Origin: a virus
Virus record (IMG/VR): IMGVR_UViG_3300044631_001443
Coordinates: 1-20,171 of that record
Length of the DNA stretch: 20,171 nucleotides
Reading direction: 5' to 3' (one strand)
The notes beneath the pieces were generated by a model, which ran no database searches, had not been told where the DNA came from, and saw only the letters and a list, made by a program, of their open reading frames with translations. A program made the position numbers and the translations under genes. Below, piece by piece: positions 10,833-17,948 of this stretch; position 1 is the stretch's first letter, and every line of letters begins with the position of its first letter.

Positions 10833-11765
10833 CTACGCCGCCGGCCTATCCCCGTCGCCCGGCTCGCCCAAGTCGAGCGGCGGCAGGAAGTCCAAGGCCG
10901 ACTCCACCCCGGTGATCCGCTCGTCGTAGTAGTGGGTCTCGGCCATCTCCTCGCTGCTGTGGCCCAGCTGCTTTTTGGCCGACTTGCCCGCCTTCTTGAG
11001 GTATGAGGCCGTCGCTTTGCGGATGCTGTGGAACGGGTGGTACGGCACGCCGGCCGAGCGGCACAAGACCTTGAGCGAGGCGTAGCAGCTCAGGATCTTG
11101 CGGTCCTCCAGCCAGGGCCACACAAGGGCCTCTGGCGGCCCCTTCTGCGTGGCCATGAGCCTGGCCAGCTCGGGCGTGATCGCCCGCGTAATCGTGTCCT
11201 GGCGGCCCTTGCGGGTGGCGGCCAGGAACGTAAGCGTGCACCGCTCTAGGTCTACTTCCCTCCACCGCAGGGCCAGCACGGCCCCGATCCGCTCGCCGGT
11301 CTGGAACATGGCCTGCAGTTTCGTGAGCCAGTACCAGGCCGCTGGCTTGCCTGCTACGGTCCCCTTGCGGTGTCGGGCGGCTCGGACCAGGGCGCTAAGT
11401 TCGTCGGCCGTGTAGGCCACGGGGCGGGGCTTAGGGACGCGGGGGCGGGCGTAATCGGGGAACTCGAGCAGCTCGCCGTTCGACTTTTTCCACCGCTTCT
11501 TTGCCAGCCACGTCCACAGGCTGCGAAGGTGAGCCGAGTCTTTGGCCAAGCTGGCGGGAGAAATCATCTTGTACCGGCTGTGCTGGGTGGTCTGCCGCCA
11601 ACGCAGGAACTTGGCCGCCGTCAGGTCGTCGAGATCGTCGACCGTGGGCTCGTGGCCGATGAAGTCCCGGAACCTGTCCAGCGTGGCTTCGTACATGGCG
11701 GTCGTGCGGTCGCAGAGATTCTTGAGCGGCGCGACACGGTCTTTGAGCAACTCTCTGAGGGTCAT
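10833..11765 (-). CDS. int: Tyrosine recombinase (phage integrase)
   Basis: A 310-residue protein read leftward. ATG 11765 is chosen because AAGGAG (top-strand CTCCTT at 11773-11778) lies seven bases upstream; an upstream in-frame start at 11789 lacks this. A SAM-like N-terminal core-binding domain covers about residues 5-95. The catalytic domain shows the full set: Arg159 in TGERIGAVLAL, Lys186 in TRKGRQD, His246 and Arg249 in FHSIRKA, His269 in LGHSS, and the nucleophile Tyr279 or Tyr280 in ETHYYD. It integrates and, with an excisionase, excises the phage. No obvious integron-specific insertion is seen before the HxxR box, so it should not be mistaken for IntI. Confidence 0.93.
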   Translation of the reverse strand: MTLRELLKDRVAPLKNLCDRTTAMYEATLDRFRDFIGHEPTVDDLDDLTAAKFLRWRQTTQHSRYKMISPASLAKDSAHLRSLWTWLAKKRWKKSNGELLEFPDYARPRVPKPRPVAYTADELSALVRAARHRKGTVAGKPAAWYWLTKLQAMFQTGERIGAVLALRWREVDLERCTLTFLAATRKGRQDTITRAITPELARLMATQKGPPEALVWPWLEDRKILSCYASLKVLCRSAGVPYHPFHSIRKATASYLKKAGKSAKKQLGHSSEEMAETHYYDERITGVESALDFLPPLDLGEPGDGDRPAA

Positions 11766-11797
11766 CGTGCGTCTCCTTTTTTGGGCCAAGGGACGCT

Positions 11798-11825
11798 AGT
11801 CTAGCGTACGTGTACAGTTGTCCAA
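11798..11825 (-). promoter_or_regulatory. Candidate leftward integrase promoter
   Basis: Read leftward, TTGGAC (11825-11820) and TAGACT (11803-11798) are separated by 16 nt, giving a start near 11791 and a short leader to the integrase ribosome binding site. The -10 lies inside the perfect palindrome GCTAG-T-CTAGC at 11795-11805, next to two GTAC palindromes (11806-11815), so repressor control is plausible. Confidence 0.4.
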
Positions 11826-11972
11826 TCTGCACCCCGTCCGCTGGAACAATCTGCCCTTGGCGGGCTGTTTCATACTGTACAGACTTTCGAGTGCCAGAGG
11901 CAAGGCGAGGCCCGGCAGGCGTCGTTTCGGACGGCCCGCCGGCGGCTTGCGAATACTTCCGTCGGCGTTGGT

Positions 11973-12000
11973 TTGACGCATCTAACGCTGCCGATACATT
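11973..12000 (+). promoter_or_regulatory. Rightward promoter with embedded CTAACG operator (copy 1)
   Basis: TTGACG at 11973-11978 and TACATT at 11995-12000 are 16 nt apart. Between them lies CTAACGCTGCCGATA (11982-11996), the first of three similar elements. Transcription would begin around 12007, at or next to the ATG at 12008, so the excisionase-like mRNA may be leaderless. Confidence 0.6.
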
Positions 12001-12007
12001 CTGGGGC

Positions 12008-12253
12008 ATGGTTGTGGCATCGCCGGACAAAGAGTGGCTGACAGTGTCCGAGGCAGCAGAGGCCGCCGGCTGCACGGAGGGCTGGATACGCCTGCTGCTG
12101 GGGCGCGGCGACCTGGCCGGCTGGAAGGCAGGGGAGCGGGCCTGGCTGGTCGATGCTGCCGCAGCTCGAGCCCTGCGGGGATCCCTGTCCACTCGCAGCG
12201 TGGGCCAGCGCGAGACGAAAAAGCCCGCCAGCAAACGCCGGAAATCTCGGTAG
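12008..12253 (+). CDS. Excisionase-like HTH protein
   Basis: An 81-residue protein. Residues 10-58 (WLTVSEAAEAAGCTEGWIRLLL, then GRGDLAGWKAGERAWLVDAAA) form a MerR/Xis-type winged helix-turn-helix: the opening L-T-V-x-E-A-A, the recognition helix after TEGWIRLL and the final G-x-R-x-W-L-V-D wing are all present. The C-terminus is a basic Lys/Arg-rich tail. In phages such proteins act as recombination directionality factors or repressors, and the position facing the integrase supports the former. ATG 12008 is chosen because the promoter -10 ends at 12000. The transcript would start almost at the ATG with no ribosome binding site. Confidence 0.72.
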   Translation: MVVASPDKEWLTVSEAAEAAGCTEGWIRLLLGRGDLAGWKAGERAWLVDAAAARALRGSLSTRSVGQRETKKPASKRRKSR

Positions 12254-12286
12254 TTTGTGCCGCCAAAAAATCTTTACGGGATGCTC

Positions 12287-12316
12287 TTGACGGCCAACTA
12301 ACGATACCGCTAGTGT
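12287..12316 (+). promoter_or_regulatory. Rightward promoter with CTAACG operator (copy 2)
   Basis: TTGACG at 12287-12292 and TAGTGT at 12311-12316 are separated by 18 nt that include CTAACGATACCGCTA (12298-12312). It would drive the 23-residue frame at 12367 and genes beyond. The remaining parts of the 12254-12587 gap hold only the small frame, copy 3 and the promoter at 12532. Confidence 0.5.
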
Positions 12317-12366
12317 GCCGCTCGTCATCACGGTGGTGACAGGCACGACCCGACACAGGTGGTGCG

Positions 12367-12438
12367 ATGAACGCTGAGGTCTGGTTTGAGCTGCTGCTGG
12401 TGGTGTTGCGGATCTTCGCCGCTGGCCAGTTTGGTTGA
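12367..12438 (+). CDS. Possible 23-residue membrane peptide
   Basis: ATG 12367 to TGA 12436-12438 encodes MNAEVWFELLLVVLRIFAAG and three more residues. A hydrophobic helix fills most of it. AGGTGG at 12357-12362 is a fair ribosome binding site and the copy-2 promoter lies about 50 nt upstream. It could be a real micropeptide or a leader frame whose translation influences downstream expression. The stop overlaps the copy-3 promoter -35. Without conservation data this stays tentative. Confidence 0.35.
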   Translation: MNAEVWFELLLVVLRIFAAGQFG

Positions 12439-12462
12439 GAGAACTAACGCTACCGCTATGCC
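12435..12462 (+). promoter_or_regulatory. Rightward promoter-like element with CTAACG operator (copy 3)
   Basis: TTGAGA at 12435-12440 and TATGCC at 12457-12462 are 16 nt apart, with CTAACGCTACCGCTA at 12444-12458 between them. Spacing of the repeat from the -35 (3 nt) is the same as in copy 1. The -10 is weak. Confidence 0.45.
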
Positions 12463-12531
12463 GTGCGTGTACAGGAATACGACTCCTCAAACCCATGTTT
12501 TTCCCGAGCGCCACGCACTAAAAAAAGTCGC

Positions 12532-12559
12532 TTGACCTTTATGTGGACGGGCGTACATT
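12532..12559 (+). promoter_or_regulatory. Early rightward promoter
   Basis: TTGACC at 12532-12537 and TACATT at 12554-12559 are separated by 16 nt, the best -35/-10 pair in the window along with 11973-12000. It lacks the CTAACG element of the three promoters to its left. It lies about 20 nt before the ribosome binding site of the gene at 12588 and is probably the main promoter of the recombination/replication operon. Confidence 0.6.
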
Positions 12560-12587
12560 ACGCCACCCAAACACGCAGGAGGCCCCC

Positions 12588-12821
12588 ATGCAGACGAATG
12601 ACCCCCACCATCTGGAAGCCGCTGCTGCCTCGGTCGCCATGGCCGAGTTCTACGGCAGCGTCTGGAAGCCCAAGCCCGGCGACCGTGTTCGCTGCCCGCG
12701 GGCTTTCGGCGGCGGCTACCAGGACGGCGTGGTCGTCGGCCCGGATCGGGACGGCTACCTCATCGACACCGCCGAGGGCCGGCTGCTGATGTACCTCGAG
12801 GAGCTTGAGCGGATTCGCTGA
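12588..12821 (+). CDS. Small early protein with SH3-like pattern
   Basis: A 77-residue protein. AGGAGG at 12577-12582 sits five bases before ATG 12588. The second half (WKPKPGDRVRCPRAFGGGYQDGVVVGPDRDGYLIDTAEGRLLMYLEELERI) reads like a small five-stranded SH3/KOW-like barrel: K-P-G-D-x-V-x-C start, G-x-V-V-G-P turn, G-R-L-L-x-Y-x-E-x-L-E end. Similar small domains in phage early regions are often of unknown function. It is the first gene after the early promoter. Confidence 0.6.
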   Translation: MQTNDPHHLEAAAASVAMAEFYGSVWKPKPGDRVRCPRAFGGGYQDGVVVGPDRDGYLIDTAEGRLLMYLEELERIR

Positions 12822-12926
12822 CCACAGGAGACCCGGTGGAACCGGGGACGCAAGGACGCAGAGAGCGGCCGACGCAGGACGGGGACGCCGCTGGTTTTAA
12901 GGACGCAACACGAAAGGACACGACCC
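12822..12926. other. Leader of the recT gene with hairpin and GGACGC repeats
   Basis: A 105-nt gap. CCCGGT (12832-12837) and ACCGGG (12841-12846) form a six-pair hairpin with a GGA loop. It is not followed by a T run, so it is not a standard terminator. GGACGC recurs at 12846, 12854, 12883 and 12901. The hairpin may tune expression of the recT gene downstream; this is inference. Confidence 0.35.
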
Positions 12927-13724
12927 ATGAGCACAGAGCTCAGCACTAACACGACGCCCGCCAAGGGGCTGGCATTGCAGACCATGGCCGACGCCATGAA
13001 GTTCGGCGAGATGGTGGCGGCGAGCGACTTCGCCCCGAAGGATTTCCGAGGAAAGCCGGCCAGCTGCGTGCTCGCCATCCAAGCCGGGGCCGAGATCGGG
13101 CTGAGCCCGATGCAGGCCCTGCAGTCGATTGCCGTGGTCAACGGGCGGCCGAGCATCTTCGGTGACGCCGCCCTGGCCGTGGTCAAGGCGAGCCCGGTCT
13201 GCGAGTACGTCACCGAGTCGGTTGACGGTGACGGCGAGCAGATGGTGGCCACCTGCACCGCCAAGCGACGAGGCTACCCGACGCCCACGGTGGTGAAGTT
13301 CACCGTGGCAGACGCCAAGAAAGCCGGGTTGTGGGGCAAGAGCGGCCCGTGGACGCAGTACCCCAAGCGGATGCTGCAGCTGCGGGCGAGGGGCTTTGCC
13401 CTGCGTGACGCCTTCCCGGACGTGCTCAAGGGCTTGGTGACGGCCGAGGAGGCCCAGGACTACCCAGCCGTTCCGGTGACGACTGAGCCGGTCGTCGTGC
13501 GTCCTGCACCGACCCAGCCTGCAGAGGAGCGTGCCGACCCGTACGAGGTGGCCAAGGCCGCCATCGACGTCGAGAAGGACATTGCCAAGCTCAATGCCAT
13601 GCGGACCCGCATTGACCAGCGGCTCAAGCAGGGCACGTTCACGCCGTTCCAGGCCGACGAGCTGCTCGACCAGATACACGCCCGCGTGGAGTTCCTTGAG
13701 GCCGAGAGCGAGGTGACTGCATGA
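12927..13724 (+). CDS. recT: RecT-family single-strand annealing protein
   Basis: A 265-residue protein with the RecT core: SPMQALQSIAVVNGRPSIFGDAALAVVK near residues 52-80, the TCTAKRRGYPTPTVVKFTVADAKKAGLWGKSGPW block near 110-145, and YPKRMLQLRARGFALRDAFPDVLKGLVTAEEAQDY near 148-182. Each block holds the family's conserved residues. The last ~80 residues are a Pro-rich linker and a charged helical tail, probably for partner binding. RecT coats single strands and anneals homologous DNA, supporting phage recombination and replication. No exonuclease (RecE/YqaJ type) gene is recognised in the window. AAAGGA precedes the ATG. The stop overlaps the next start (ATGA). Confidence 0.9.
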   Translation: MSTELSTNTTPAKGLALQTMADAMKFGEMVAASDFAPKDFRGKPASCVLAIQAGAEIGLSPMQALQSIAVVNGRPSIFGDAALAVVKASPVCEYVTESVDGDGEQMVATCTAKRRGYPTPTVVKFTVADAKKAGLWGKSGPWTQYPKRMLQLRARGFALRDAFPDVLKGLVTAEEAQDYPAVPVTTEPVVVRPAPTQPAEERADPYEVAKAAIDVEKDIAKLNAMRTRIDQRLKQGTFTPFQADELLDQIHARVEFLEAESEVTA

Positions 13725-17579: not shown

Positions 17580-17948
17580 ATGAGAGCAGGACGCCAAAAG
17601 TGCGTTGTCGACGTGCCGCTGATGTTCAAGCTGTGGCACGACGACACGCTGCGAACCGAGGAAGTCGCACTGCGGCTGAAGCTCAGCACTGGGATGCTCA
17701 GGACCGTGGCCAAGCGGCACGGCCTGCTGCATCGGGTGTCGGTGCCCAGTGGCGAAATCCACGAAGCACCGTCAGACGCCGAGGAGCTGCTATCGCAGGA
17801 CTCGCTCGCCCTGTCGCCGTGGGTTGCGGCTAGGGCGGCGATGTTCAGGCGTGAGAAGGAGCAGCGAGGCGAGCCAGCACGGCTGGAGATCGGCGTCACC
17901 ACGCTGGTCACGTCCGGGCCGCGCCGCCGGCTGGCTCGGATGGAGTGA
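17580..17948 (+). CDS. HTH-containing hypothetical protein
   Basis: A 122-residue protein. ATG 17580 follows AAGGAG at about 17567-17572 and lies 4 nt after the clamp stop. Residues 17-50 (FKLWHDDTLRTEEVALRLKLSTGMLRTVAKRHGL) look like a homeodomain-like helix-turn-helix of the type that follows W-x-x-x-x-T-x-x-x-I-A in phage regulators. The remainder is polar with an Arg-rich end. Its stop codon lies inside the first attC-like site. Confidence 0.6.
   Translation: MRAGRQKCVVDVPLMFKLWHDDTLRTEEVALRLKLSTGMLRTVAKRHGLLHRVSVPSGEIHEAPSDAEELLSQDSLALSPWVAARAAMFRREKEQRGEPARLEIGVTTLVTSGPRRRLARME

Follow-up and report, generated by a model that had tools for sequence, protein, structure and literature searches.

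Co-variation of a small winged helix-turn-helix protein with putative promoter-spacer operators in the control region of a phage family

Gene order and conserved layout of the control region

The window, as we call the whole stretch of DNA analysed here, is the 20,171-base IMG/VR record IMGVR_UViG_3300044631_001443, in which tail genes and a DNA methyltransferase are followed by a minus-strand integrase. Beyond the integrase the genes run rightward and code for a small helix-turn-helix (HTH) protein (the 12008 protein), a RecT-like protein, a primosomal-like protein, a LexA DNA-binding domain that stands alone, and a sliding clamp (Table 1). No tRNA was found within the record, and Rfam gave no matches in 11700-13000.

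Table 1. Features of the control region and its neighbors in the window
Feature	Position	Strand	Remarks
Tyrosine integrase	10833..11789	-	PF00589, E 3.1e-9; divergent from the 12008 HTH gene
Promoter 1, TTGACG-16-TACATT	11973..12000	+	equivalent promoter in 62/62 loci
Putative operator 1, CTAACGCTGCCGATA	11982..11996	+	spacer of promoter 1
81-aa winged-HTH protein gene, proposed autorepressor	12008..12253	+	
Promoter 2, TTGACG-18-TAGTGT	12287..12316	+	equivalent site in 57/62 loci
Putative operator 2, CTAACGATACCGCTA	12298..12312	+	spacer of promoter 2
23-aa hydrophobic peptide ORF, conserved	12367..12438	+	between sites 2 and 3; similar ORF in 23/62 loci, window included
Promoter 3, TTGAGA-16-TATGCC	12435..12462	+	read from sequence; -10 poor
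Putative operator 3, CTAACGCTACCGCTA	12444..12458	+	spacer of promoter 3
Promoter 4, TTGACC-16-TACATT, without operator	12532..12559	+	same kind in 50/62 loci
RecT-like annealing protein, early gene	12927..13724	+	query for finding relatives
Stand-alone LexA DNA-binding domain, 78 aa	15889-16125		domain match 1.1e-22

Related loci were gathered by RecT searches of IMG/VR, one search with the LexA-like protein and one in which a RecT alignment was run against bacterial genomes. The 177 loci compared include many that represent the same contig twice; 109 of them carry RecT and a small HTH gene that can be recognised and has a start, and a further 11 have an HTH match without a usable start. Deduplication left 62 distinct loci, namely the window itself, a contig from a Phycisphaerales MAG (L214) and 60 further viral contigs. 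A collection-wide scan was additionally made with CTAACGNTACCGCTA as query, and its loci enter none of the counts. Across the 62 loci a single layout recurs, comprising the integrase, the divergent small HTH gene, sites 2 and 3 of the operator described below, and RecT. Their HTH proteins, 77-116 aa long, form 14 groups when clustered at 60% identity. A Burkholderiaceae MAG locus (L213) has RecT and none of this layout. The stand-alone 78-aa LexA DNA-binding domain is present in many relatives, and several (L006, L024, L026, L031 and others) have long C runs (TTGCCCCCCCCCC) upstream of RecT. A comparison with 50,697 annotated phage records gave no match to the 12008 protein, and the literature library that we searched showed no paper on this protein-operator system.

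A dyad between -35 and -10 of three rightward promoters

The first-pass annotation had reported a motif, CTAACGMTRCCGMTA, between a TTGA-type -35 and a -10-like hexamer at three rightward promoters; read from the sequence, the -35/-10 pairs begin at 11973, 12287 and 12435. A scan of the 20,171-base record recovers both the motif and its placement: copies without mismatch lie at 11982, 12298 and 12444, all on the plus strand, and nowhere else. The motif has exactly three copies in the record and is not common elsewhere; the annotation had named a motif common elsewhere in the genome as the outcome that would refute its proposal. Allowing up to three mismatches gives 6 matches against 1.7 expected, a number reached in 1 of 100 shuffles. 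The 15-bp copies are thus borne out, but their sequence is more aptly given as a dyad, TANCG-N4-CGNTA. Of 48 distinct site-2 sequences, 44% show complementarity in five or more of the six arm pairs that flank an N4 center, as against 4% of shuffles; the largest clade, clade 0, is without the N4 dyad. Exactly three dyads each are found in all five TACCG-type records searched in full, of 10 to 40 kb (L004, L056, L058, L070 and L075, with L056 and L058 identical in the control region), and exactly three sites each in all four TAACG-type records so searched, window included. The whole records L007, L008 and L010 contain one perfect dyad each, their other sites being imperfect, and eight records of the L055 group have 1 to 3 dyads per record under a strict pattern.

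A sigma-70 promoter scan flags promoter 1 and the promoter at 12532 only (2 found against 1.0 expected), and the case for promoters 2 and 3 therefore rests on the layout conserved in relatives; the 57 loci with an equivalent of promoter 2 include three of clade 6 that do not fit. Promoter 1 is the HTH gene's own promoter, so that the sites overlap both this promoter and the early promoters downstream. Its spacer is 16 bp long in 56 loci, 17 in five and 18 in one, and the distance from its -10 to the ATG of the HTH gene is 6-7 nt in 56, 10 in five and 14 in one of the 62. In the window the ATG lies 7 nt past the -10; given this closeness, the mRNA of the HTH gene is predicted to be leaderless or nearly so.

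In the window, only 33 bp separate the HTH stop codon from promoter 2, and between promoters 2 and 3 there is only the 23-aa hydrophobic peptide ORF, the first clear ORF past site 2. This peptide has a C-terminal R-I-x-A-A-G-x-G, is often preceded by a good Shine-Dalgarno sequence, and terminates at a stop codon within the -35 of promoter 3. The fourth promoter lacks the motif, as had been noted at the outset, and has motif-free counterparts in most of the loci (Table 1); it lies nearer to RecT than the operator-bearing promoters. A palindrome, GGCGTACATTACGCC, covers its -10 (12545-12562), and parts of this palindrome recur in those relatives that have promoter 4.

The putative operators co-vary with the 12008 protein

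Four HTH proteins of the window, those at 12008, 14138, 15889 and 17580, had been listed as candidate repressors. Co-variation across the relatives singles out the 12008 protein; the other three receive little support from it or none, that at 17580 being represented at only 9 loci. Used as a query, the degenerate site 1 separated own from other regions poorly, and we therefore took site 2, which could be located in 57 of the 62 loci from where it lies and from the form of its promoter. The site-2 core matches elsewhere in the locus's own early region at a mean of 13.6 of 17 positions, as opposed to 11.3 when loci are permuted (57 loci; sd 0.16; largest of 2000 permutations 11.95), and in 31 of the 57 the match is unequalled by any locus of another HTH clade. 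Operator similarity follows HTH protein similarity with a Mantel r of 0.61 (p 0.001; 54 loci, the 57 less the three of clade 6). The corresponding values are 0.18 for the 14138-like proteins (n=21), -0.08 for the 17580-like proteins (n=9), 0.09 for the integrase (n=48; partial r 0.01 given the HTH protein), 0.12 for RecT (n=51) and 0.27 for the sliding clamp (n=24). Likewise, the operator arms require 8 changes on the HTH tree of 32 loci, and 16, 18 and 16 on the integrase, RecT and LexA-like trees of the same loci.

The protein and the operators also change together between close relatives. L012, L015 and L018 share integrases that are 99%, LexA-like proteins 99-100% and RecT proteins 96-98% identical, yet their HTH proteins are only 23-42% identical and their site-2 operators agree at just 7-8 of 18 bases. 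The Phycisphaerales locus L214 has operators of the type found in L077, and its HTH protein is 46% identical to that of L077. There are two exceptions: in clade 6 (L278, L288 and L292) site 2 matches its own region worse than those of others, and for L363, whose HTH protein is 59% identical to that of L078, the scan performed turned up no matching operator. Physical linkage of the HTH gene to sites 1 and 2 accounts for part of the co-variation.

Of 62 positions in the HTH protein, the one that shares most mutual information with base X of the operator arm TaXCG is residue 32, which lies in the predicted recognition helix; an arginine there coincides with C at this arm base in 14 of 15 distinct rows. 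When relatedness is allowed for the association is not significant, with 2-3 independent pairs that agree and none that disagrees.

Fold of the 12008 protein and comparison with other regulators

The structure model of the 12008 protein is a winged helix-turn-helix, at modest confidence (pLDDT 72.7). Its best fold matches are BldC (Z 7.6) and the Pukovnik Xis (Z 7.1), both under the tool's warning Z of 8, followed by MerR regulators. In the profile libraries excisionases come nearest, the protein scoring 21.7 bits with TIGR01764 (excisionase; curated cut-off 28.8) and 21.2 bits with HTH_17 (cut-off 27), both below the cut-offs; at E 0.01 these two profiles match 15 and 17 of 29 members. The MerR family shares a related winged-HTH fold, and its operators have the geometry seen at these sites, a dyad with a short center within the promoter spacer. 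However, MerR promoters have spacers of 19-20 bp, whereas those found here are 16-18 bp and none is of the long kind, and the 81-aa chain is without an effector domain. The operators of lambda-type CI/Cro systems likewise overlap early promoters, and their cassettes are swapped between relatives; here, by contrast, one small protein is present and no CI/Cro pair is seen in the region.

A candidate one-protein immunity system

The first-pass annotation had suggested a lysis/lysogeny control circuit. All the evidence is consistent with an operator shared within the control region of a temperate phage; that the 12008 protein is the lysogeny repressor, and not a Cro- or Cox-like regulator, is what we infer beyond this. 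We propose, at a probability of about 0.7, that the region encodes a one-protein autorepressing immunity system, in which the 81-aa protein would determine specificity and recognise TANCG-N4-CGNTA in the 16-18 bp spacers of promoters 1-3. By occupying these dyads it would exclude RNA polymerase. At site 1 it would repress its own gene and thus be autoregulatory, at sites 2 and 3 it would shut off the early rightward transcripts, and the prophage would thereby be kept silent. Promoter 4 would lie outside its control and stands nearer to RecT, so that RecT may not be silenced in the lysogen by the 12008 protein alone, which weakens the lysogeny reading. The protein and its operators are proposed to travel together as an immunity cassette, so that close relatives would differ in specificity.

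Since the 12008 protein resembles excisionases, the main rival is a role like that of Cox or Apl: it would chiefly be a recombination directionality factor that also represses promoters, with the lysogeny repressor encoded elsewhere, perhaps outside the 20-kb fragment. The similarity to the excisionase and HTH_17 profiles, albeit below their cut-offs, the Pukovnik Xis among the best folds, and the position of the gene next to the integrase all speak for such a role. Predicted fold and position beside the integrase are also what the protein has in common with Apl, Cox and Xis of 186, P2 and Pukovnik, and Apl too represses promoters; the sites of known directionality factors, though, are direct repeats in tandem, spaced by 10-11 bp (PMC7498355), and are located at att and between promoters. 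In most clades the sites here are instead single dyads in promoter spacers, and tandem direct repeats one helical turn apart were not found among the clades other than clade 0, whose sites are not dyads. Moreover, the operators do not track the integrase once the HTH protein is accounted for. We regard a directionality factor as unlikely, if the most serious of the alternatives.

It is considerably less probable that the true binder is a third protein, encoded elsewhere in the genome and co-varying with the HTH cassette. The record is a fragment and each genome was compared only in part, which gives such a protein somewhere to lie, but it would call for a second co-varying gene, whereas site 1 belongs to the HTH gene's own promoter and, in the window, the 33-bp gap and the 23-aa ORF are the only room nearby. 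Least probable of all, and only barely to be entertained, is binding by the LexA-like protein of the phage (15889) or by the host LexA. The match of the former to the LexA DNA-binding domain is strong, but the operators do not follow it (Mantel r 0.08, p 0.106, n=39), and LexA-like proteins that are 99-100% identical stand beside different operators. As to the host LexA, the dyad and the promoter-4 palindrome occur in none of 30 lexA upstream stretches, which were returned from 61 genomes searched, all of one class, and of which those of L388 and L391 are cut at the wrong place.

The autorepressing immunity system that we favor may be compared with the Cluster A mycobacteriophages (L5, Bxb1 and TipsytheTRex), where the repressor and its cognate stoperator sites also diverge together and set heteroimmunity (PMC6550527, PMC9283540). 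Those phages differ in having more than 20 asymmetric 13-bp sites genome-wide, bound in L5 by a 183-residue repressor as a monomer, as against three sites, mostly dyads, and a protein of ~80 aa here. The odds appear evenly balanced that the system represents an undescribed class of phage immunity, in which a near-leaderless, ~80-aa repressor of excisionase-like fold would be the sole, autoregulated master acting through three spacer operators, its recognition helix and operators having diversified into at least seven operator-arm types and its cassettes having been exchanged across a large phage family. The proposed system would amount to a minimal lysogeny switch made of one protein, in phages of a poorly studied bacterial phylum, with many natural specificities readable from sequence alone. 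From contigs of uncultured phages one could then predict, in a testable way, which phages would be immune to which others, and the matching proteins and operators of the family would serve as a natural collection for learning how this small fold reads DNA.

Host range and possible attachment sites

The phage family probably infects Planctomycetota, to judge from two MAG contigs (L214 and L215) and L363, a genome drawn from the class of the L215 genome. RecT matches are sparse, being found in only 2 and 4 of 397 genomes in each of two classes, starting genomes included. Part of the loci have an element resembling a tRNA 3' end between site 3 and promoter 4; L010, whose integrase is 91% identical, is without it. 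The sequence GTTCGACTCCCCTCAT lies within a tRNA-Ala gene wherever it occurs, which is in 3 of 98 genomes from one class and in none of 101 from another. At 12462-12485, between site 3 and promoter 4 of the window, TGTACAG adjoins CGACTCC, which resembles a tRNA T-arm, and TGTACAG repeats also lie in the gap between the integrase and the HTH gene (11797-11900); both are possible attachment or integrase sites.
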